DNA of 64,000 nucleotides from Comamonadaceae bacterium 2PF (lineage in GTDB: Bacteria > Pseudomonadota > Gammaproteobacteria > Burkholderiales > Burkholderiaceae_C), in assembly GCA_005502875.1 (NCBI GenBank), contig SCMV01000001.1, positions 186,001-250,000 on the forward strand, given 5' to 3'. Under the pieces are notes generated by a model. The model ran no database searches. It was not told the origin of the DNA and worked only from the letters and a program-made list of their open reading frames with translations. Positions within the stretch are counted from its first letter, which is position 1. Each line of letters opens with the position of its first letter. Of this stretch, positions 53,935 to 64,000 are shown piece by piece. A program made the translations under genes and the position numbers.

Positions 53935-53963
53935 TGGGCAAACCCCGGGGGCGCCTTTACAAT
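53935..53963 (+). promoter_or_regulatory. Promoter of the cobalamin-riboswitch operon
   Basis: -35 TGGGCA (53935-53940) and -10 TACAAT (53958-53963) with a 17-nt spacer, ending about 10 nt before the riboswitch begins. The -10 matches 5 of 6 consensus bases, the -35 4 of 6. Confidence 0.5.
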
Positions 53964-53974
53964 CGGCCCCGCCT

Positions 53975-54180
53975 CAGGTGTCCTTGGGGCCGCGCGAGCG
54001 GTCTGCAAGGGTGAAACGGGAAGTTCGGTGCGCGGGCCCTTTGGCCGCCCATCCCGACGCTGCCCCCGCAACGGTGAAGCGAAGTCAAGGCGATCCACGG
54101 TGCCACTGTGCTGCGAAGCATGGGAAGGCGGGTCGCTGGCCCACAAGGCGCTCGCGAGCCCGGAGACCGGCCTGAAGCAT
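53975..54180 (+). ncRNA. Cobalamin riboswitch
   Basis: The sequence contains the conserved parts in order: GGTGTCC near 53977, AACGGGAAGTTCGGTG (from about 54015), the B12 box GCTGCCCCCGCAACGGTGA (about 54059-54077), CCACTGT, then GGGAAGGCGGGTCG and AGCCCGGAGACCGGCCT. Together these are diagnostic of the AdoCbl class. It controls the three genes downstream, two PEP-CTERM proteins and a TonB receptor. Confidence 0.92.
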
Positions 54181-54305
54181 GGACCCGGTTGCTGCGGTGG
54201 GCGGCGAGGCGGTGACGACACGCCTTCGGCGCTTTTCAAGCGCCCTGACCTGGCGTGCACGTGCCCGTCTCGCTCCTCCCCATCGTTCGGCCGGTTGGCT
54301 CGAAT

Positions 54306-54326
54306 GCGCCCACGGATGGTGGGCGC
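54306..54326 (+). promoter_or_regulatory. Hairpin next to the Shine-Dalgarno, candidate riboswitch expression platform
   Basis: GCGCCCAC and GTGGGCGC form a perfect 8-bp stem with a 5-nt loop and end 2 nt before the GGAGG ribosome site at 54328-54332. A second 7-bp hairpin is at 54228-54244. Neither has a T-run, so control of translation is more likely than termination. Confidence 0.45.
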
Positions 54327-54338
54327 CGGAGGAACAAC

Positions 54339-55154
54339 ATGCGATTCAAGCTTCTCTCAGTCCCGGCCTGCGCGGCCACCCTGGCCCTGGCCTGCATCGG
54401 TCAGGCCCATGCGGCCGGCCCTTTCGCGCCGGCGGCCGGCAAACCTGGCTCCACCGCCATCAGCAAGGACAGCGCGTCCTTCGTGCAATGGGCCACCGGC
54501 TGGGAAAACTACCTGCCTGGCACCAACGTCGATGCGCAGTGGAAGACGCCCGAGAAGGCCCTGGGCAAGGCCCAAGGCACCTCCACCGACATCGTCGTGC
54601 TGGGTGACGCCGGCCGCATCACCCTGACCTTCGGGGGCTCGATCTACAACGGCGCGGGCGCCGACTTCGCGGTCTTCGAAAACAGCTTCAGCGACACCTT
54701 CCTGGAGCTGGCTTTCGTCGAGGTCTCGTCCAATGGCGTCGACTTCTTCCGCTTCCCCAGCTACTCGTTCACGCCTGCCCCCGTGGGCGGCTTCGGCAAC
54801 ATCGACCCGACCAACATCGACGGCCTGGCCGGCAAGTACCGCCAGGGTTTTGGCACGCCCTTCGACCTGGACGCGCTGGCCGGCACCGCAGGCCTGGACG
54901 TGGACAACGTGCGCTTCGTGCGCATCGTCGACATCATCGGACGTGGCCAGGAGTTCGACAGCTACCCCGCCTCCGCCGGCGGCCCGCACGCCATCTACGA
55001 CCCGTACCCGACCACGGGCAGCGGCGGCTTCGACCTCGAAGCCGTGGGCGTCATCCACTTTGCACCCGTGCCCGAGCCTCAGACCTGGGCGCTGATGGGC
55101 GTGGGCCTGCTGGCCCTGGGCGCAATGCAGCGCCGCCGCCGTCGCGCAGCCTGA
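54339..55154 (+). CDS. PEP-CTERM surface protein in cobalamin-riboswitch operon
   Basis: 271 residues. GGAGG is 6 nt before the ATG. Signal peptide to about residue 24 (GQAHA/AG), a beta-rich domain ([44 protein letters not shown]), then the sorting tail [29 protein letters not shown] motif, helix and basic end cut by exosortase. Placement under a B12 riboswitch and ahead of a TonB receptor suggests it helps capture a corrinoid at the cell surface. That role is inferred. Confidence 0.82.
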
Positions 55155-55260
55155 ACAGCCTGATCGGCCTGCAAAGGCCGATTGATTCACCTCATCGACC
55201 TGGTTGAAGGGCGCGCCCACCACGGACCGCTCCCTCAACCCTTCACTGGACACACGCACC

Positions 55261-56061
55261 ATGAACACATCCCTTTTCGCCGCGACCCTGGTGGCCGCCA
55301 GCCTGATGGGCACCGGCGCCCACGCCGCGCTGACCGTCAGCACCTTCGACGACCTGCCCCTGAGCGCTGGCAGCCAGTACCTGCCTGGCGCTGCCACCTC
55401 GTTCACCAGTGGCGCCGCCACCTTCAACCACGACTTCACCGACTGGGGCGGCGGCTGCTGCTGGAGTGGCTGGACTTACTCCAACCAGACCGACACCGCG
55501 ACCCCGGGCTTCGAGAACCAGTTCAGCGCTTACGCCGGCTCGGGTGCAGGCGGCTCGGCCAACTACGCGCTGGCCTACCTGGGCTCACCCGTGATCCGCT
55601 TCGATGCCCCGGCCGAGCTCGCCAGCGTGGAAGTGAGCAACACCACTTACACCGCCTTGTCGATGCTGCAAGGCGACTCGTTCGCCAAGAAGTTCGGGGG
55701 CGACAGCGGCAACGACGCCGACTTCCTCAAGCTCACCTTCATCGGCCTGAACGAGGCCGACCAGGAAACCGGTCGCGTCGACTTCTACCTGGCCGACTAC
55801 CGCTTCGCCGACAACAGCCTGGACTACGTGATCGGCAACTGGGCCAGCGTGAACCTGAGCTCGCTGGGCACGGTCTCGGCGCTGAAGTTCGAGCTGAGCT
55901 CGTCCGACAACGGCGACTTCGGCATGAACACGCCGTCTTACTTCGCCATCGACAACTTGGCCGTGACGGCCGTGCCCGAGGCCTCGTCGCTGGCGATGAT
56001 GCTGGCGGGGCTGGTGGGTGTGGCGGGAGTCACGGGCCTGCGTCGCCGATCGCAGCGATGA
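55261..56061 (+). CDS. DUF4465 protein with PEP-CTERM tail
   Basis: 266 residues. Signal peptide to GAHA, then a domain with SGWTYSNQTDTATPGFENQF, EVSNTTYTALSMLQGDSFAKKFGG and FYLADYRFADNSLDYV, matching DUF4465, and a VPEASSLAMMLAGLVGVAGVTGLRRRSQR sorting tail (PEA instead of PEP). The ATG of the TonB receptor overlaps its stop. From memory, the surface B12-binding BtuH proteins of Bacteroidetes belong to this domain family; I could not check. A cobalamin-binding surface protein is the leading reading. Confidence 0.82.
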   Translation: MNTSLFAATLVAASLMGTGAHAALTVSTFDDLPLSAGSQYLPGAATSFTSGAATFNHDFTDWGGGCCWSGWTYSNQTDTATPGFENQFSAYAGSGAGGSANYALAYLGSPVIRFDAPAELASVEVSNTTYTALSMLQGDSFAKKFGGDSGNDADFLKLTFIGLNEADQETGRVDFYLADYRFADNSLDYVIGNWASVNLSSLGTVSALKFELSSSDNGDFGMNTPSYFAIDNLAVTAVPEASSLAMMLAGLVGVAGVTGLRRRSQR

Positions 56062-58244
56062 TTGACGGTGCGTTGGCGGACCGTGCCCTGGCCAAGTGGC
56101 CGGGGCAGCCAAAGCCGGGGCTGAATCGGCGCGTTGTGGTGGCCTTCGGCTCGGCGTTGGGTTTGGCCGCAGGCATCGCCACCGCGCAGGTCCCTGGCGC
56201 TTCGACTGCGGGCCCCGCGCCGCAGCCGCCGTCGTCGCAGCAGCCTGCGGTCAGCGAGGCGACGCTGCCCGAGGTCAGCGTGCGCGCGAGCGACGCATCA
56301 AGGGCCTCCAGCGCATCGGGCGAGGCCCCTCGGAACGTCACGGTGATCACGGCGCGTGACATCGCGCGCTCCAGCGCGAGTTCGGTGTCCGAGCTGCTGG
56401 CCACCGAGGCCAACCTGTCGCTGCAAAGCTACTCTGGCAACGACCGAAGCGCCACCCTCGACATGCGCGGCATGGGCGAGACCGCCAGCAGCAACGTGCT
56501 GATCGTGGTCGACGGTGTGGTCATCAACGAGAACGATCTGTCGGGCGCCAACCTGTCGTCGCTGTCGCTCAGCGAGGTCCGCCAGGTCGAGGTCGACCGA
56601 GGTGGTGGGGCCATCGAGCATGGCAGTGGCGCGGTGGCCGGTGTGGTGCGCATCACCACCTTGCCCGAACTCGACGAAGGCGAGCGGCGCGCACGGGCGC
56701 AGGTGCGCGTCGGCACCCTGGGCGAGCGCATCGGGGACCTTCAACTCGCGACCCGCATCGGTGCCTGGACGCCCGTGCTGCAACTGCACCGCGGGCGCGA
56801 ACCGGGCTGGCGTGACAACGGTGAATTCGACAGCACTCGCGCGGCCCTGAGCCTGCGGTGGCAGGACACGATCGGCGGCGTCAAGGCCGATGCACACGCG
56901 CGGCTCACGCGCCAGCGCGACCGCTACGGATTGCCTGGTCCGGTCTCGCGCGAGGTGTTCGAATCAGGCAGCGAGCGCGAGCTGCGTGCGACCCAGAACC
57001 CGCTGAACGGAGGCCGCACCGAGCTCGATCGGCAGGACCTGGGGGCCAGCCTGGACTTCGGCCCGATCGGGCAACTCACATGGGCCAGCAGTCACCGCGA
57101 GCGCGTCAACCCATTTCTAATCGGTGTCGATGCCAGCCGCCCGTTGGCCGACCAGGAGCAAAGGACCACGTCCGAGCGTTGGGACCACCGACTGAGTCAC
57201 CGCGCCGGCATCGAGGTGGGCGGTCTGCGGCAGGAGCTGACGATGGGCTGGAGCCGGATGGACGGCGACTACGCCCGCCGTGACCTGCCAGCCAGCGCCC
57301 CGGACCACACGCGCTTACAGGGCGAAGCGGCCGCCAGCGCCTGGACGCTGGCGACCACGCTGAGGCCCGTGCGCGAGGTCACCGTGCAGGCGGGGGTGCG
57401 TTGGGACCACTTCGAGTCCACCCGGCAGAGTCAGAAGTGGTCGAGCAACTGCACCTTCGCGCCTTTCCCGGTCCTGGTGTGTTCACCCTACGCCTACGAA
57501 GACACGCAGGCCCCGGTGGCCGGCGACTGGTTCAACCGGCTCGGCGAGCTGGGCATCAGCTGGCAACCGAGCGAGGGCACCACCTTCTTCGTGCGCCGCA
57601 ACGGCACCTTCCGTGCGCCCAACCTCGACGAGCTCAACAAGGCCGCCGACACTTTGCGCCCTCAGCGTGGCGTCACGCAGGAACTGGGTTGGCGTCAGCG
57701 CGCGGGCGACAGCCTGTCGTGGTCGGCCACCTGGTTCGACATGCGCCTGCAAGACGAGATTTTCTATGGCCGCGACGCCGCAGGCGATGAACTCAACCGC
57801 AACCGCGACGAGGCCTCACGTCGCCAAGGCATCGAGCTGTCGGGCCGATGGCTGCCTGCACCGGGTTGGCGCCTGAACGGCATGCTCAGCTACCTGGTTC
57901 CCAGCCTGGCGGGTCGCACTGGCGACATCCCGCTGGTGGCCCGAACCACGGCGAGCCTCACGCTGGGCTGGCAACCCAGCCCAGCCTGGCAGTCGGCGCT
58001 GTCGGTGCGCCACGTGGGGCCGCGTCGCGATGGCAAGGCCACCGACGCGGACAACCCGCCATTGGCTCGCCTGCGCGCCCACCAGGTGGTGGACGCCGTT
58101 GTGCGCTATCGCCAGGACGACATCGAGCTGGCGTTGGGGGTGAACAACCTGTTTGACGAGCGTTACAGCACCATCGCCTTCAGCCAGACCTACTACCCCA
58201 TGCCGGGGCGCCAGGCGCACACCACGCTGAGCGTGCGGTTCTGA
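56058..58244 (+). CDS. TonB-dependent receptor, probable cobalamin uptake (BtuB-like)
   Basis: 728 residues from ATG 56058, overlapping the DUF4465 stop (ATGA). A signal peptide, a TonB box (TLPEVSVRA), a plug domain (RNVTVITARDIARSSASSVSELL, LDMRGMGETASSNVLIVVDGVVIN) and a 22-strand barrel ending in HTTLSVRF. Under the riboswitch and with two surface proteins, it very likely takes up a corrinoid. The receptor alone does not show BtuB specificity. It is convergent with a copper chaperone gene. Confidence 0.88.
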   Translation: MIDGALADRALAKWPGQPKPGLNRRVVVAFGSALGLAAGIATAQVPGASTAGPAPQPPSSQQPAVSEATLPEVSVRASDASRASSASGEAPRNVTVITARDIARSSASSVSELLATEANLSLQSYSGNDRSATLDMRGMGETASSNVLIVVDGVVINENDLSGANLSSLSLSEVRQVEVDRGGGAIEHGSGAVAGVVRITTLPELDEGERRARAQVRVGTLGERIGDLQLATRIGAWTPVLQLHRGREPGWRDNGEFDSTRAALSLRWQDTIGGVKADAHARLTRQRDRYGLPGPVSREVFESGSERELRATQNPLNGGRTELDRQDLGASLDFGPIGQLTWASSHRERVNPFLIGVDASRPLADQEQRTTSERWDHRLSHRAGIEVGGLRQELTMGWSRMDGDYARRDLPASAPDHTRLQGEAAASAWTLATTLRPVREVTVQAGVRWDHFESTRQSQKWSSNCTFAPFPVLVCSPYAYEDTQAPVAGDWFNRLGELGISWQPSEGTTFFVRRNGTFRAPNLDELNKAADTLRPQRGVTQELGWRQRAGDSLSWSATWFDMRLQDEIFYGRDAAGDELNRNRDEASRRQGIELSGRWLPAPGWRLNGMLSYLVPSLAGRTGDIPLVARTTASLTLGWQPSPAWQSALSVRHVGPRRDGKATDADNPPLARLRAHQVVDAVVRYRQDDIELALGVNNLFDERYSTIAFSQTYYPMPGRQAHTTLSVRF

Positions 58245-58275: not shown

Positions 58276-58794
58276 TCAGTGCTTGTGGTCGCCGTGGCCG
58301 TGAGCATGTCCGTGGTCATGCCCGGCGGGCTCGGCGCCTTGCGCTGGCCCCATCTTCTTGACTGGCACCTTGACGTCGATGGTCGCCTGCTTCTTTTGCG
58401 AGTCTTCCACGACGAGCTTGACCGGCACGGTGCTGCCATCGGGCAGGGGCTTCTTCAGGCCCATCAGCATCACGTGATACGAGCCGGGCTTGAGCGACAC
58501 AGATTGCCCAGCAGGCAGCGGCAGCGATGCGACGGCGCGCATCTTCATGACGTCACCTTCCATCTTCATCTCGTGGACTTCGACGGTGGCGGCGACGGGC
58601 GAGCTGGCGCTCACCAGCGTGCTGTCCTGCTTGGCCGTGAGGTTGGCGAACATGCCGGTGGCCTGCTGACCCGGCACGGTGGCGCGCACCCAGGCGTTGC
58701 TGACGGCCACCTGCGACCAGGCCGAGCCAGCCAGGGTGAGCAGGGCCACCGCCAGCAGGCGCGGGACGTGGGAAGGTGTGCGTTGGTTCTTCAT
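58276..58794 (-). CDS. Periplasmic copper chaperone PCu(A)C
   Basis: 172 residues. AGGAG lies 7 nt before the ATG. Signal peptide to SAWS, then the PCu(A)C fold with Met/His ligands in VEVHEMKMEGDVMKMR and LKPGSYHVMLMGLKKPL, and a His-rich tail (GHDHGHAHGHGDHKH). Such proteins deliver Cu(I) to cytochrome oxidase or other targets. It is the last gene of the copper operon after the OprC-like receptor. Confidence 0.93.
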   Translation of the reverse strand: MKNQRTPSHVPRLLAVALLTLAGSAWSQVAVSNAWVRATVPGQQATGMFANLTAKQDSTLVSASSPVAATVEVHEMKMEGDVMKMRAVASLPLPAGQSVSLKPGSYHVMLMGLKKPLPDGSTVPVKLVVEDSQKKQATIDVKVPVKKMGPAQGAEPAGHDHGHAHGHGDHKH

Positions 58795-58837
58795 GGCAGT
58801 CTCCTAGAGGTGCAAAGCAGCAGGTGCCATCCTGCCA

Positions 58838-60880
58838 TCAAAGTTGCTGGACCCACTTGACCCACCAGCGGCGGCCGGGCTCCGGCACCCGGGTGCTCAG
58901 CGAGGAGCCCAGCGTGCCCCAGCTGCGGTCGACGCTGTGGTTGATGTGTTCAACGTACGCCCGGTCGAAGGCGTTGTCCACCCCGATGGCCAGGCTGGCC
59001 TGCCAGGGCAACTGGCGGCGAACGGATGCGTTGACGACGCTGAACCCCGGCGTGGCCTCGTTGACGTCCAGGCCGTTGGTGTTGCCCTGGTTGAATGCGT
59101 ATCGGTCTTGGCGCGCTGCGCCACGCCATTCCAAGTGGGCTTGCCAGGGGCCTGAGCGCCAGTCGGTGTTCACTCGCAACTCGTCCGGGGGCGTTTGCGC
59201 CAGCGGGCGACGCTCGCTGAGGTTGTCGGCACGCACCCGGCTGAAGGCAGCAGAGCTGGACCAGTTCGGGCTCCATTGCCATCGGCCTTCAAGCTCCCAG
59301 CCCACGCGCCTGGCCTGCACGTTGCGCGCGGTGGTGCCGCTTGTCAGCAAGATGAAGTCGTCGATGCGGCTGTGGAAGGCGTCGAGCGACAGTTGCCACG
59401 GACCCGATGCCCCGCTCACGCCAGCGTGCAACTCGCGATTGGTCTCGGGCTCGAGTTTCAAGGCGTCCACGCTGCCCACCTCGATGGGGTCAGGTGCCCG
59501 CTGCGACTGACCCCAGGCCAGGTGCGTGCGCCAGGCATCGGCCACCTGCCAGCTCAGGCGCGCGACGTGCTGGCTGAGCTCGTGTTCGCTGCGACCGTTC
59601 TCGCCTGACTTGGCCACCGGGTTCACCGCGAAGCTGCGGATCGCGCCCGTGCGCGTGTCCACCTGGTCACGGCGGCTGCCCACCGTCAGCTGCCAGGCGT
59701 CGAGGTCCAGGCTCCATTCGGCGTACAAACCGGCTTTGCGCTGGCGCACCTGGTAGTAGGGCTGCAGGCCCGGGTCCTGTTGAAAACACATGGGCACGCC
59801 GAAGTCGATGCAGGCTTCGCTGCTCAGGTGGTTGGTGGCGTCGTGGTCGTCGCTGGCCCCGTGGCTGCCCAGGGTCAGGCGCTGCGCATCGGTCAGGCGC
59901 AGCACGGCCTCGGCCTTGAGCTGGCGCCGCGTCACGTCCTGGACCATGTCCTCGCGGATGCGCGCCTCGCCGTCGTAGGTCAGGGGCTCCATCGGCCGAA
60001 GGCTGTGGTTGTCCATGGCGTGGTGGATGCGCTGGGCCATCCACCGGACCTGCAGCTGCTCCAGCCACGTGTTGAGCTCGCGGGCTTGCCAACCGGCGCC
60101 CAGCCGATCCTGGCGAAAGGCCGTGCCATCCATGTGGAAGGCGGGGTAGACGGCCTGACCGTTGCTGTGCGCCACATCGGCGCTCAGGGTCTGGTGTTCG
60201 CTGATGCGCCAACCGAAGTCGGCCATCGTCTGGCGCTTGTCGAAGCGGGAGGGCACTCGGCGCCCCTGGCCATCGCGGTAGTCGTCGCGTTCGCTGTGGC
60301 GGCTGTTGATGCGGGCCCAGGCGGGCTCGGTGTTGAGCAGGGCTTCGGCGGCCAGCATCCTCTCGCCAAAGCGTCCGACCTGAGCCTGCAAGCCCGCTTC
60401 GGGCGCTTGGTCGCTGGCGGGCTGCTTGCGCTCGGCCAGCACGGCGCCGCCGAACACGCCGGCGTGCCGGACGGTGGTAGGGCCCTTGAGCACCGTGAGC
60501 CGGTCGATGCTGTCGAGCGTCAGGTAGGACGTCGCCGGGTCCATGCCGTGGTTGCACGCTCCATCGATCGACAGGCCATCGAGCAGCACCGGCACGCGCG
60601 AGCCGCTGAGGCCCTGCACCGACACCAGGCCTGAGGTGCCAGCCTGGCGCATCACGCGCACGCCGTTGACTTGCCGGAGCTGTTCGGCGGGGTCGTCCTG
60701 GGCGTCCTGCCCCTGGAGCGCGAAGCTGCGCTGCTGCGGGGGCGGCAGGCTTGGAGCCTGAACGCGGACCGCTGGGAGGGTCACCTCCTGGGACCAGGCC
60801 GGTGTGATCAAGGTCGCACTCAGGCAGGCCGGCAAAACGACACGCTGAAACATCGGTGGGGACTTCTTGGCAATCGACAT
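58838..60880 (-). CDS. TonB-dependent copper receptor (OprC-like)
   Basis: 680 residues. Signal peptide, TonB box (TLPAVRVQA), plug with LLDGLSIDGACNHGMDPATSYL, which matches the copper-receptor class (DGxCNHGMDPxT), then a barrel ending in VKWVQQL. OprC-type receptors import copper. It follows two PEP-CTERM genes and precedes the PCu(A)C gene, an operon for copper acquisition. MFQRVVL at 60853 is another possible start. Confidence 0.88.
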   Translation of the reverse strand: MSIAKKSPPMFQRVVLPACLSATLITPAWSQEVTLPAVRVQAPSLPPPQQRSFALQGQDAQDDPAEQLRQVNGVRVMRQAGTSGLVSVQGLSGSRVPVLLDGLSIDGACNHGMDPATSYLTLDSIDRLTVLKGPTTVRHAGVFGGAVLAERKQPASDQAPEAGLQAQVGRFGERMLAAEALLNTEPAWARINSRHSERDDYRDGQGRRVPSRFDKRQTMADFGWRISEHQTLSADVAHSNGQAVYPAFHMDGTAFRQDRLGAGWQARELNTWLEQLQVRWMAQRIHHAMDNHSLRPMEPLTYDGEARIREDMVQDVTRRQLKAEAVLRLTDAQRLTLGSHGASDDHDATNHLSSEACIDFGVPMCFQQDPGLQPYYQVRQRKAGLYAEWSLDLDAWQLTVGSRRDQVDTRTGAIRSFAVNPVAKSGENGRSEHELSQHVARLSWQVADAWRTHLAWGQSQRAPDPIEVGSVDALKLEPETNRELHAGVSGASGPWQLSLDAFHSRIDDFILLTSGTTARNVQARRVGWELEGRWQWSPNWSSSAAFSRVRADNLSERRPLAQTPPDELRVNTDWRSGPWQAHLEWRGAARQDRYAFNQGNTNGLDVNEATPGFSVVNASVRRQLPWQASLAIGVDNAFDRAYVEHINHSVDRSWGTLGSSLSTRVPEPGRRWWVKWVQQL

Positions 60881-60944
60881 CGAAGGTGGCGGCAGCGCAC
60901 GCCCCGACCCAGGCAGGTCAAGGCGCGCAGGCGAGGCTCAGGGA

Positions 60945-61562
60945 TCAGCCTCGGCGACGTTGGCGCAGGGCGCCGATGCCAAGCAGACCCAGCGCAGCCA
61001 TGCCCCAGGCCTCGGGCTCAGGCACCGCTGGCGCCAGGTGCAGGTGCAGCTTGATGGCGTCGCGCACCGGGTCACCCATGCCCGTCATGGCGTGGTGGTG
61101 GTACATCGACTCGTTGAGGTTCACCGACACGGTGCTGGCCGTGAAGCTCAGCGCGTTGGCCGGATCGAAGCCCTCGATCAAGTTGCCCTGCACGTTCGGC
61201 ACATAGGTCGTGTTGGTCACGATGGCGTCTTCGATCTCCAGGGGCACGTTGCTCACGCGAAAGCCTTGCATCGCAAACGTGCCGACGTTCATGAAGTCGT
61301 CGTTGCCGACGTAGGTCAGGGCGATGTCGCCGCCACTGAAATCGATGTCCCAGCGGATGTCCTTGGTGCTGCTGAGCGACCAGCCGCTGACTTCAAGTCC
61401 GCTGCCAACGGTGACCGTGCGGCTGCTCAGCGCCGTGAAGCCCGAGCCGAAGTCGATGCCGTACTCGATGAGCAGGGTCTCGCCATCGAGGCTGCCGTGG
61501 GCGCTGGCGATGCTGGCGCAGGCGCCGAGGGTGAGGGCGAGGAGGGTGTTGCGAAGTTTCAT
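60945..61562 (-). CDS. PEP-CTERM protein in copper operon, predicted N-terminal histidine
   Basis: 205 residues. AGGA is 7 nt before MKLRN at 61562; an ATG two codons earlier is too close to it. Signal cleavage after IASA would leave HGSLDGETLL, with His22 as first residue. A Met/His cluster SMYHHHAMTGM and KLHLHL lie before the sorting tail (VPEPEAWGMAALGLLGIGALRQRRRG). It sits between another PEP-CTERM gene and the copper receptor. Copper binding on the cell surface is inferred, not shown. The family is not recognised. Confidence 0.78.
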   Translation of the reverse strand: MKLRNTLLALTLGACASIASAHGSLDGETLLIEYGIDFGSGFTALSSRTVTVGSGLEVSGWSLSSTKDIRWDIDFSGGDIALTYVGNDDFMNVGTFAMQGFRVSNVPLEIEDAIVTNTTYVPNVQGNLIEGFDPANALSFTASTVSVNLNESMYHHHAMTGMGDPVRDAIKLHLHLAPAVPEPEAWGMAALGLLGIGALRQRRRG

Positions 61563-61583
61563 GGTCATGTCCTGATGAGGTGT

Positions 61584-62351
61584 TCAGCGTGCGGTGCGAC
61601 GGCGGGCCATCCAGCCCAAGGCCAATGCGCCCGCGAAAGCAAGGCCGACGGATGAAGGCTCGGGCACGGCCGAAACCGACAGCGTGGCGCTGAGCCCGAA
61701 GTTGCCGGTGTTGCCAGGCACGCCCGCGTTCTGCGCGTCGTAGACGTTGCCGCCAATGACGATGGAGTACGTGCCAGCGGCCAGCCGGAAGGTGGCCGAG
61801 GTCAAGCCATCGGCGCTGCCGTCACCCAAGGCGCCGACGCCATCGGCGCTGTGGCCGACATGGACCAGGTCCCCCAGCACGCCGGCGTCGTTGCCGATCT
61901 TGAAATCGCCCAGGGCGTTCCAGACGCCTTCGACGGCGGAGGGCAACGTGGCGCGCCAGGCCATCGACGATGGCGATGTGTCGTAAGACAGCGAGGACAC
62001 GCCTTCGGCGTCAACGGTGATGGGCGCCAGGCCCTGGTAGACAGAGAAGGCCGGCACCAGCCCACCGACCGAGGTGCTGGTGGCGTTCGCCTTGGCCGCG
62101 GCGGTGATGGTGACATCGGCGGCGTTGGCGAGCGTGAACTTGAACCAGCGTGCCTTGTGGCTGTCACCCCAATCGGCATCGGCGGCATCGGCCCAGCCGA
62201 AGTTGCCTGAGATGGCCTGGTTGGCGATGGTGAGGCTGGCGTCGGTCAGACCTGTGAACGAGCCGAAGTCGCGGCCCGTGTAGGAAACGTGAGACCAGGC
62301 GGGTGCGCAGGCGAGCGCGACCACGCCCGCGATGAAAGCGGTGCGGAACAT
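61584..62351 (-). CDS. PEP-CTERM protein in copper operon, predicted N-terminal histidine
   Basis: 255 residues. GGAG 7 nt before the ATG. Signal cleavage after APAWS would leave HVSYTGRDFG, so the mature N-terminus is His21. Other His are in DSHKARW and DLVHVGHSADG. The tail VPEPSSVGLAFAGALALGWMARRRTAR is a PEP-CTERM sorting signal. The central domain is beta-rich and unknown to me. Cotranscribed with the following PEP-CTERM and OprC-like genes. Confidence 0.78.
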   Translation of the reverse strand: MFRTAFIAGVVALACAPAWSHVSYTGRDFGSFTGLTDASLTIANQAISGNFGWADAADADWGDSHKARWFKFTLANAADVTITAAAKANATSTSVGGLVPAFSVYQGLAPITVDAEGVSSLSYDTSPSSMAWRATLPSAVEGVWNALGDFKIGNDAGVLGDLVHVGHSADGVGALGDGSADGLTSATFRLAAGTYSIVIGGNVYDAQNAGVPGNTGNFGLSATLSVSAVPEPSSVGLAFAGALALGWMARRRTAR

Positions 62352-62443
62352 GTGAGGACTCCAGGCGCGAGCCGACTCAGGCCCGTTTTCGGGCGAGCTT
62401 CAAGCCGACAAGCGACGATGAAAAAGGAAGGGTGGGAAAAGGC

Positions 62444-62833
62444 TCAGGCCGCAGCAGGAGGCGCGCGAGCGAGCGCAGGCGACCACGCCGCGAGCGGGCG
62501 GGGCGCATGCAGGAACAGCCAGGGCACGGCCTGGGGTTCCGAGGTCAGCGTGAGAACGGTCACCGCCACAGGTGGCAGGCCCATGTCGTGCGCTTGCAGG
62601 AAGCAGGCCGGGCAGTGCGATTGCGCGTGCAGGCCGCCTTGGTCCGTGGGCTGGTCATGCGTGGCTTGACCCACCGCGACCCAGCGTGTGCCCGTGTTGG
62701 AGCACACCGCCACCCAGGCCAGCCCCGCGTTGCGCTGAACCAGCATCCATTGGGAGATGGCCGGGGCAAGCGCCATCGCGAGGACCGCCAGGGCGGCGAT
62801 CCAGGTGATGCGACGGCGGATGGACGAGGACAT
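62444..62833 (-). CDS. DUF2946-family membrane-anchored protein, first gene of copper operon
   Basis: 129 residues. An N-terminal hydrophobic helix (RRITWIAALAVLAMALAPAIS), then a Cys pair in SHCPACFLQAHDM, the DUF2946 signature. Family members go with copper or other metal genes; the function is not known. It starts almost at the predicted transcription start, so it may be leaderless. Confidence 0.8.
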   Translation of the reverse strand: MSSSIRRRITWIAALAVLAMALAPAISQWMLVQRNAGLAWVAVCSNTGTRWVAVGQATHDQPTDQGGLHAQSHCPACFLQAHDMGLPPVAVTVLTLTSEPQAVPWLFLHAPRPLAAWSPALARAPPAAA

Positions 62834-62930: not shown

Positions 62931-64000
62931 TCAAAACGCCACCGCCAGGCTCACGCGCACCGTGCGCGGCTCGGCGGGGTGCGAGTGCAGGTCCGCCGTG
63001 GCCTGGCCGCTGGGCTCGCTCGCCAGGCGCGACTCGTAGAAGTAGTCGATGTCACTCACCTTGCGATCGAAGAGGTTGAAGACATCGACCCACACCTGCA
63101 CGTCGGGCGTGAGTTTCCTGCCCAGGCGCGCGTAGGCCAGGGTGGTGCCCTTGGAGCGCACGCTGCCGTCTTCGATCAGGTCGCGCGGTCCGAAGTGGCG
63201 CAGCTGCAATTGCGCCGTCCAGGGGCCTTTGTCGTCGTAGCTCAGGCCGACCGATGCCACGCGCTCGACCGCGCCGGGCACGCGGCGGCCCGCGTTGGGC
63301 GCATCACCCTGGTCCTGGCGGAAACGCGCCTTCGACCAGGCCACGTCGGCGTCCACCCACCAGCCGGGCGCGGGCTGCCAGTGCTGGCCGATCTCGATGC
63401 CTCGGCGGCGTGAAGCGCCGCTGGCCTCGGTCTCGCCGGCGTCGCCCACGAACACCAGCTCGGAGTCGAGGTTGAGCTGCCACAGCGCGACGGTGGTGTG
63501 CCAGCCGGGCAGCCACTCGCCACGCAGGCCGAGCTCGTGGCCACGCGTGCGCACCAGCGGGTCGGCGCGGCCGATGGCATCGCGGCTGCTGGTGTCGGGG
63601 TTGGCCTTGGCCGTCAGGCGCGAGGTCATGCCGCGCGCGTCGTTGCTGTGAAAGCCCCAGCCGGTGTTGGCGAAGAACTCGGTGTTGGCCCAAGGGCCGA
63701 ACACCAGCGAGAGCTTGGGGCTGGGGGCCACGTCGCTGCGCTGTCCGCTGTTGTCGGCGACGCTGCTGTCCACGTCGACCGAGACGCGGTCAACGCGCAG
63801 GCCGGCGACGCTGCGCAGCCAGGGCAGCCAGCGCGTTTCGCTCTGACCATGCAGGCCGACGCTGGTCTGGCGCACACGGCTTTGCTGGATCACGTCTCGG
63901 CGCTCGCCGCCCACGGCGGTGTACAGGCCCACCGGGTCCAGTCGGTCGTGGCGCCATTGCAGGCCCAGGCTGTGGCGGCTTTCCAGGCCCGCCAGCGGTG
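62931..64000 (-). CDS. TonB-dependent receptor, C-terminal part (5' end outside window)
   Basis: The frame is open to the right edge; 355 residues of the barrel are seen. Strands alternate as in TonB receptors and it ends in EPRTVRVSLAVAF. VWVDVFNLFDRKVSDIDYFYESRL is a typical near-terminal stretch. It is upstream of the copper operon on the same strand, 97 bp before its promoter, so it is separately placed. Substrate unknown; iron-siderophore and metal types share this end. Confidence 0.85.
   Translation of the reverse strand, partial: PLAGLESRHSLGLQWRHDRLDPVGLYTAVGGERRDVIQQSRVRQTSVGLHGQSETRWLPWLRSVAGLRVDRVSVDVDSSVADNSGQRSDVAPSPKLSLVFGPWANTEFFANTGWGFHSNDARGMTSRLTAKANPDTSSRDAIGRADPLVRTRGHELGLRGEWLPGWHTTVALWQLNLDSELVFVGDAGETEASGASRRRGIEIGQHWQPAPGWWVDADVAWSKARFRQDQGDAPNAGRRVPGAVERVASVGLSYDDKGPWTAQLQLRHFGPRDLIEDGSVRSKGTTLAYARLGRKLTPDVQVWVDVFNLFDRKVSDIDYFYESRLASEPSGQATADLHSHPAEPRTVRVSLAVAF

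Follow-up and report, generated by a model that had tools for sequence, protein, structure and literature searches.

Outside the cell, copper collection by Gram-negative bacteria is known mainly from methanobactin and from the CorA and MopE proteins of methanotrophs. In the account given in PMC3912023, CorA and MopE act as extracellular copper collectors, and the copper site of CorA is built from Kyn62, His64 and His114. The CruR-bfrG-bp2921 operon of Bordetella pertussis is headed by a leader whose CXXC and C-terminal RAPP motifs lie about 45 residues apart and which stops transcription of the operon when copper is present (PMC9426467), and the copper ligands of the P. aeruginosa receptor OprC are C143, M147, H323 and M325 (PMC8610252). 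Here we analyse a 64,000-nucleotide stretch of Comamonadaceae bacterium 2PF (GCA_005502875.1, contig SCMV01000001.1, positions 186,001 to 250,000, forward strand), referred to below as the window, in which a CruR-type leader and an OprC-like receptor share a gene run with two PEP-CTERM proteins, PEP1 and PEP2. We consider it probable that this run is a copper-repressed scavenging operon in which PEP1, a CorA-like binder with an N-terminal histidine, would feed the receptor.

All five open reading frames (ORFs) lie on the minus strand in the order DUF2946, PEP1, PEP2, TonB receptor and PCu(A)C (Table 1), and the ORFs together with their Pfam and NCBIfam matches bear out the genes, strand and order given by a first-pass annotation of the sequence. 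The leader, a DUF2946 protein as in the Bordetella operon (PMC9426467), has CPAC (CXXC) at residues 74-77 and RAPP at 123-126, with 45 residues between them. It carries both sequence marks of CruR, from which copper-dependent regulation of the operon is predicted. The neighbour families that PMC9426467 names in its text include no PEP-CTERM proteins. OprC is the closest solved structure to the receptor (best PDB match, E 1.9e-61), and all four of its copper ligands (PMC8610252) are retained in the alignment. The window's receptor differs from OprC in standing in one gene run with surface proteins and PCu(A)C. Since the CruR marks, the OprC ligand set and PCu(A)C occur together, the substrate would be copper and the direction import under copper shortage. 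The earlier claim of a copper-acquisition operon is well supported by these features, and the operon is predicted to be shut down by ample copper.

Table 1. Features of the putative copper-acquisition operon (positions in the window; mature residues counted from the predicted N-terminal His)
Feature	Position	Strand	Remark
DUF2946 gene, putative CruR-type copper-sensing leader ORF	62444..62833	-	PF11162 64.6 bits, cut-off 23.7
PEP1, 255 residues: signal peptide, predicted CorA-like domain with N-terminal His, PEP-CTERM tail	61584..62351	-	
PEP1 signal peptide, residues 1-20, ends AWS	62292..62351	-	-1/-3 pattern in relatives
Codon of predicted mature His1, PEP1	62289..62291	-	H in 84/84 aligned rows
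PEP1 GDSH motif, mature 42-45; H45 aligned on CorA His64, D43 on CorA Trp/Kyn62	62157..62168	-	
PEP1 PEP-CTERM sorting signal	61596..61670	-	
PEP2, 207 residues: signal peptide, all-beta domain without PDB match, PEP-CTERM tail	60945..61568	-	
Codon of predicted mature His1, PEP2	61497..61499	-	conserved in 9/18 rows only
PEP2 His/Met cluster MYHHHAMTGMGD, mature 132-143	61071..61106	-	
PEP2 PEP-CTERM sorting signal	60954..61028	-	
OprC-like TonB-dependent copper receptor (putative), 680 residues	58838..60880	-	TIGR01778 290 bits; best PDB match OprC
CNHGM, CxxxM copper motif, C109/M113, aligned to OprC C143/M147	60542..60556	-	
HAM, HxM copper motif, H287/M289, aligned to OprC H323/M325	60014..60022	-	
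PCu(A)C periplasmic copper chaperone, 172 residues, His-rich tail	58276..58794	-	PF04314 131.5 bits, cut-off 29.4

The closest relative, Aquabacterium parvum B6, keeps the five-gene set in full, and the source of the window is probably an Aquabacterium or a close relation. Codon differences from this genome are chiefly synonymous in PEP1 (40 synonymous, 14 non-synonymous) and PEP2 (29 and 12), which indicates that these genes evolve as proteins. Synonymous differences dominate in four of the five genes and are about even in PCu(A)C (31 synonymous, 27 non-synonymous). Only PEP-CTERM-type models reach their cut-off for PEP1 and PEP2 in Pfam and NCBIfam (24.1 and 22.7 bits, respectively, cut-off 20.7), and neither model set names a function. 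Both proteins carry the marks of exosortase substrates, namely a signal peptide and a PEP tail in a genome with exosortase, here encoded by two Exosortase_EpsH genes (216 and 199 bits).

The first-pass annotation had placed a signal-peptidase site directly before a histidine in each of the two proteins, and the sequences in question, APAWS/H in PEP1 and SIASA/H in PEP2, are indeed present; cleavage there is predicted from the -3/-1 signal-peptidase pattern only. As a control, we applied a crude home-made signal-peptidase rule to the best 30 of 65 PEP-CTERM matches in the genome (29 called, 28 distinct). Histidine at +1 occurs in both PEP1 and PEP2 and in 0/29 of the other called proteins, so the pattern exceeds chance.

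Single-sequence searches of 299 genomes of the family with PEP1 and PEP2 returned mostly PEP-CTERM tails, and only a tail-trimmed alignment worked. Free of the tail, the PEP1 alignment matched 9 of 399 genomes of the order, its own included. A scan of a species-representative genome collection gave 143 PEP1 relatives, of which 80 were kept as loci; it used internal patterns only, and H1 was thus not directly selected for. The relatives fall mainly in two phyla and include Aquabacterium, Azonexus, Methyloversatilis, Methylophilus, Thiobacillus, Nitrosospira, Nitrosovibrio, Nitrosomonas and many Verrucomicrobiota, along with single records labelled Planctomycetota and Paceibacterota. Nitrosospira and its kin oxidise ammonia, and Methyloversatilis and Methylophilus are methylotrophs.

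We aligned 83 extracted domains with that of the window (84 rows), restricting the rows to those whose profile match started at position 1; PEP1-like matches excluded by this condition also start with His, as does the best PEP1 match in 80/80 loci. Directly upstream of His1 in the relatives, Ala stands at -1 in 80/83 and at -3 in 71/83. The invariant columns are H1, Y4, W33, D38, H45, G87, L170, G173, Y175 and G181. There is no further constant His column (position 90 is His in 45/84 rows and position 147 in 34/84), and position 103 is His in 54 rows, Tyr in 29, including the window, and Leu in 1. The invariant H1 and the invariant second His would fit metal ligands.

The AlphaFold2 model of PEP1, built without templates, has a predicted local distance difference test score (pLDDT) of 96.1, with a mean of 96 over residues 1-10, and a predicted template modelling score (pTM) of 0.92. 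Its first four Foldseek matches in the PDB are CorA (7.4e-8, 1.3e-7 and 4.9e-7) and MopE (1.4e-6), followed by the receptor-binding domain of clostridial enterotoxin as the next family (1.3e-4). CorA of Methylomicrobium album BG8 and MopE* of Methylococcus capsulatus (PF18252) are accordingly the best fold matches, and their first His ligand appears to be kept in PEP1. Their secreted or surface-held, copper-repressed character, as reported in PMC3912023, we count as a further likeness. We rejected an LPMO (lytic polysaccharide monooxygenase) or CopC fold for PEP1, as none occurs among the best 50 of 1,076 Foldseek matches. The LPMO/CopC analogy drawn in the first-pass annotation survives at most in the kind of ligand, since fold and intermediate sequences put PEP1 near CorA/MopE, which that annotation did not name.

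These intermediate sequences form a bridge between the two families. In Verrucomicrobial loci, PEP1 profiles give weak matches to a second type of domain, marked by the motif GWTH. In an alignment of 34 such domains, many of which follow a PEP1 domain in a fused frame of about 780-1600 residues, W54 is kept in 33/34, H56 in 33/34 and H117 in 31/34. Pfam Cu_bind_CorA matches 33/34 of them at E<=1 (best 2.2e-5), and MopE (0.0077) and CorA (0.0093) head the five PDB entries listed for the GWTH profile, with W-T-H falling on CorA Trp62-Thr-His64. By hhalign, PEP1 aligns with the GWTH domains at a probability of 96.6% (E 4.9e-10), GDSH lying on GWTH, and the GWTH domains align with three CorA/MopE relatives at 92.4%. 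Taken together, the two alignments indicate that H45 of PEP1 probably corresponds to CorA His64. At the kynurenine position, 82/84 PEP1 rows have Asp, 2/84 have Asn and none has Trp. PEP1 is unlike CorA/MopE in this position (Asp43 in the window), in its invariant N-terminal His and PEP-CTERM tail, in that His114 is not clearly kept, and in that the Pfam model match and a nearby MauG-like gene are absent. On its sequence and predicted fold, PEP1 seems to be a relative of CorA that does without kynurenine and has an N-terminal histidine in its place.

A MauG-like di-haem protein is the presumed maker of kynurenine from Trp. With the di-haem region of locus L139 as the query, whose own Pfam CCP_MauG match is weak (22 bits, cut-off 25.6), a MauG-like gene is found at 12/14 loci with GWTH domains and 0/66 loci without them, and none in the window. 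Two CxxCH motifs are present in 11/12 of these matches, the L141 match having none, and the GWTH loci lacking a match, L133 and L148, comprise only about 1.6 kb of upstream sequence each. Such a distribution is expected if Trp oxidation is required by GWTH domains but not by PEP1 domains. The Fisher value of 1.5e-12 overstates independence, because GWTH loci share descent; 18 Verrucomicrobial loci without GWTH are also without a MauG-like enzyme, several of them on short contigs.

The Verrucomicrobial loci L136 (2801-11298), L139 (3556-12059) and L187 (3325-12725) hold chains of 1380-1600 residues in which an N-terminal-His PEP1 domain is followed by several GWTH domains, and these chains adjoin a propeller/MauG-like/immunoglobulin protein of 1400-1500 residues. 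The gene order at L136 is leader, small CxxCH protein (read by eye), SCO1, HMA, MauG-like protein and fusion.

We then scored two copper markers, a leader-like ORF and an OprC-like receptor, across the 80 PEP1 loci. By a rule of 80-200 residues, a hydrophobic start, CXXC and PP near the end, a leader-like ORF lies upstream on the same strand at 31/80 loci, compared with 0/80 upstream antisense, 0/80 downstream on the same strand and 1/80 downstream antisense. It stands <=300 bases from the PEP1 frame in 16/31 of these loci. An OprC-like receptor is present at 20/80 loci, with the HxM pattern in 20/20 and CxxxM in 16/20. At least one of the two markers occurs at 42/80 loci, which are spread over the tree and do not form one clade. 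At L091, a full-length PEP1 relative stands between a leader, which is 40% identical to that of the window and carries RAPP, and a second PEP-CTERM protein followed by a receptor; L090, also with a full-length relative, has the same arrangement, beginning with a leader-like ORF containing CAAC and RGPP.

PEP2 relatives were sought only inside the 80 PEP1 loci, where 17 were found at 15 loci, giving 18 rows with the window. The N-terminal residue is His in 9/18 rows and Gln or Ala in the others, with cleavage placed by eye, and a further relative, L111, starts with Val. We therefore rejected N-terminal His as a PEP2 family feature, and of the two proteins for which it had been claimed, it stands for PEP1 (all rows) and falls for PEP2. 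The claimed HHHAMTGM cluster is found in PEP2 as YHHHAMTGMG. M70, M132, H134, M141 and D143 are among the residues invariant in the 18 rows, and the His/Met cluster may form a Cu(I)-type site. The predicted model of PEP2 (pLDDT 90.6) has no fold match in the PDB (best E 0.2), and one weak sequence match was obtained there, 3rwx (E 0.12). At several loci PEP2 follows PEP1 and adjoins the receptor. We discarded a weak PEP2 match at L068 (E 6.5e-5, N-terminal 66 residues), which overlaps an ORF reading by eye like a porin.

In other genera, PEP2's place is taken by a third PEP-CTERM family, PEPx, with a Cys-flanked Met motif, DC..GGMMGAVCMTGT. It lies near PEP1 or the receptor at L090 (5849-6544), L091 (4647-5411), L122, L134, L166 and others, and is a possible Cu(I) binder. 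In Nitrosovibrio sp. Nv17 (L143 6853-10136), an OprC-like receptor is preceded by two PEP1 and two PEP2 genes in tandem.

Gene order, motifs, conservation, predicted fold and co-occurrence are the observed or computed basis for the following model. When copper is short, translation of the CruR-type leader would let the operon be read through. PEP1 would be exported by Sec and cut before His21, which becomes residue 1, and after processing by exosortase at its PEP-CTERM tail it would be released or held at the cell surface. The mature protein may bind one copper ion with the amine and ring of its N-terminal His and with His45, possibly joined by residue 103 as a third ligand; it would be a divergent form of the CorA/MopE fold class, having Asp in the kynurenine position and needing no MauG-like partner. 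PEP2 may serve as a second, Cu(I)-type binder via its conserved His/Met cluster. Copper would then pass, perhaps with PEP2's help, to the OprC-like TonB receptor (CxxxM-HxM) and cross the outer membrane, and PCu(A)C would take it on to copper enzymes, cytochrome oxidase for instance. The parts of this model that we infer are the cleavage, which metal is bound, the geometry of the site, the location at the surface and the transfer to the receptor. A broader proposal is, in our judgement, evenly poised between true and false: one lineage would have two copper grips, a MauG-made kynurenine (CorA-type) or an N-terminal histidine in its place (PEP1-type), and the PEP1-type would be a widespread, exosortase-sorted family for copper capture, supplying OprC-type receptors under CruR-type leaders in Verrucomicrobiota, which fuse both types in one chain, and in Betaproteobacteria, among them many ammonia oxidisers and methylotrophs.

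Several results weigh against this model. The sequence of PEP1 finds no match in the PDB even at E<=10, and PF18252 (Cu_bind_CorA) has no match in the window's genome at E<=0.01, nor does it appear among the Pfam hits of PEP1. Foldseek template modelling (TM) scores between PEP1 and CorA/MopE are only about 0.5, which argues for kinship of fold and not close identity. Aligned directly to three CorA/MopE relatives by hhalign, PEP1 scores a weak 35.8% (E 3.8e-4), and the GWTH matches to the CorA model are themselves weak, the one seen in full reaching 17.1 bits (cut-off 27). For the counterpart of CorA His114, MAFFT and hhalign disagree, and position 103 is a candidate chosen by eye. The receptor falls below the 472-bit cut-off of TIGR01778 (TonB-copper). 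The rule for leader-like ORFs was set only after examples had been seen, and in 15/31 loci the ORF lies 0.8-6.0 kb upstream of PEP1; with about half of them not adjoining PEP1, our confidence in the model is slightly lower. Neither copper marker was found at 38/80 loci, 19 of them in Nitrosomonadaceae and some at contig ends.

The loci without markers would suit a PEP1 that binds zinc or nickel and has copper genes as chance neighbours. N-terminal His sites also bind Ni in DUF4198 (PMC12537917), and ZepA, a PEP-CTERM protein, handles Zn, as described in PMC10957091. This reading is unlikely, however, given that the CxxxM-HxM copper set is retained in the receptor and the CruR motif pair in the leader, that loci with one or both markers occur in the two main phyla, and that PEP1 is kin to CorA/MopE. 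If copper is the metal, the PEP-CTERM proteins might sequester its excess for protection of the surface instead of feeding the cell, as any surface copper binder could buffer toxicity. Such a role is quite unlikely for an operon whose partner genes are import-type, not export-type, and whose leader resembles the Bordetella CruR that shuts its operon with copper present (PMC9426467). We also considered that PEP1 is an LPMO-like surface oxygenase with a histidine-brace copper site, in which H1 and the second invariant His would be joined by Tyr/His103, possibly axial. Its CorA/MopE-like fold and its place in an uptake operon with an OprC-like receptor and PCu(A)C make an enzyme very unlikely, and the published N-terminal-His capture proteins have only weak oxidase activity according to PMC12537917.

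In two further alternatives, PEP1 would hold no copper site. PEP1 and PEP2 could both be structural surface proteins in which the conserved N-terminal His has a non-metal role, consistent with the lack of a named function in Pfam and NCBIfam and with the variable N-terminus of PEP2. The invariance of H1 and H45 in PEP1, the alignment of H45 with a ligand of the CorA copper site, and the restriction of MauG-like genes to loci with Trp-type domains render this highly improbable. Alternatively, PEP2 alone would hold the copper site, in its His/Met cluster, and PEP1 would be only a scaffold or dock. Four invariant PEP2 residues (M132, H134, M141 and M70) and the position of the gene after PEP1 and beside the receptor fit this arrangement, but it is hardly credible when PEP2 is found at 15/80 PEP1 loci only and PEP1 without PEP2 also occurs behind CruR-like leaders.

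N-terminal-His metal capture has already been published for other domains (PMC12537917). The anglerases Ang-1 and Ang-2 and DUF4198/DUF6702 likewise have His right after the signal peptide and are proposed to capture metal extracellularly; their domains differ from PEP1 and PEP2, and two are fused to HupE/UreJ permeases (PMC12537917). No such fusion was met in PEP1 or PEP2, where PEP-CTERM alone scores above cut-off beside the domain, and PEP-CTERM does not occur in the main text of this signal-strapping paper. ZepA, the PEP-CTERM zinc exoprotein of Anabaena, shares the Sec signal and PEP-CTERM tail, and we also count as likenesses its metal regulation, the His at its mature N-terminus and the TonB receptors among its neighbours (PMC10957091). 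By a pattern check, the ZepA motif H-X2-9-H-F/Y-H, as given there, is in neither PEP1 nor PEP2, and copper rather than zinc genes surround them. The earlier description of PEP1 and PEP2 as an undescribed kind of protein has to be narrowed accordingly: ZepA is a published PEP-CTERM metal exoprotein, though its motif is missing from the present proteins. Among the matches listed in the open-licence PMC literature, no title or abstract start describes the PEP1 family, and PMC6769254, on copper proteins of Betaproteobacteria, is without the terms PEP-CTERM, exosortase, CorA, MopE, DUF2946 and histidine brace. If our model is true, a kynurenine-free CorA-like protein shows that the site can be rebuilt from an N-terminal histidine, surface copper capture extends to ammonia oxidisers, methylotrophs and Verrucomicrobiota, and PEP-CTERM proteins gain a second metal function beside zinc (ZepA).

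The scan also turned up other leader-like and N-terminal-His proteins. Verrucomicrobial leader-like ORFs (FDGxHPCxLC ... PPVPPPR) lie upstream of PEP1 at L120 (7136-7567), L139 (1394-1789), L187 (2904-3290) and others. None of the three tested matches Pfam DUF2946, and they are perhaps an undescribed CruR/CutF-like copper leader family. The mature chains of Verrucomicrobial neighbours at L120 (8789-9718) and L121 (7111-7971) seem to start with HNHINAG and HSHINAG, respectively, and may represent another N-terminal-His family. The window's own genome encodes two further DUF2946 proteins, without RAPP, on contig 31 (L092 572-928 and 2689-3045), near genes that, judged by eye, would encode a P-ATPase of the Cd/Zn type and a MerR regulator. 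This setting indicates that DUF2946 alone does not equal copper, and we set the pair aside as not belonging to the copper system.

Within the window, the end of another TonB receptor (siderophore-type profile best) lies at 62931-63998 (-), on the strand of the CruR-type leader and 97 bases upstream of it. On the other side of the operon, at 53959-58244 (+), a Cobalamin riboswitch (91 bits) heads a second surface-binder-plus-receptor pair: after a PEP-CTERM ORF (54255-55154) come a PEP-CTERM protein with a DUF4465 domain (55204-56061, 184 bits) and a TonB receptor. B12 binding by DUF4465 surface proteins has been published (PMC13398666), in a paper whose main text does not mention PEP-CTERM. 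The DUF4465 family and its ligand are unrelated to those of PEP1 and PEP2, but the two adjacent loci follow a common logic, in which a surface binder adjoins a TonB receptor.

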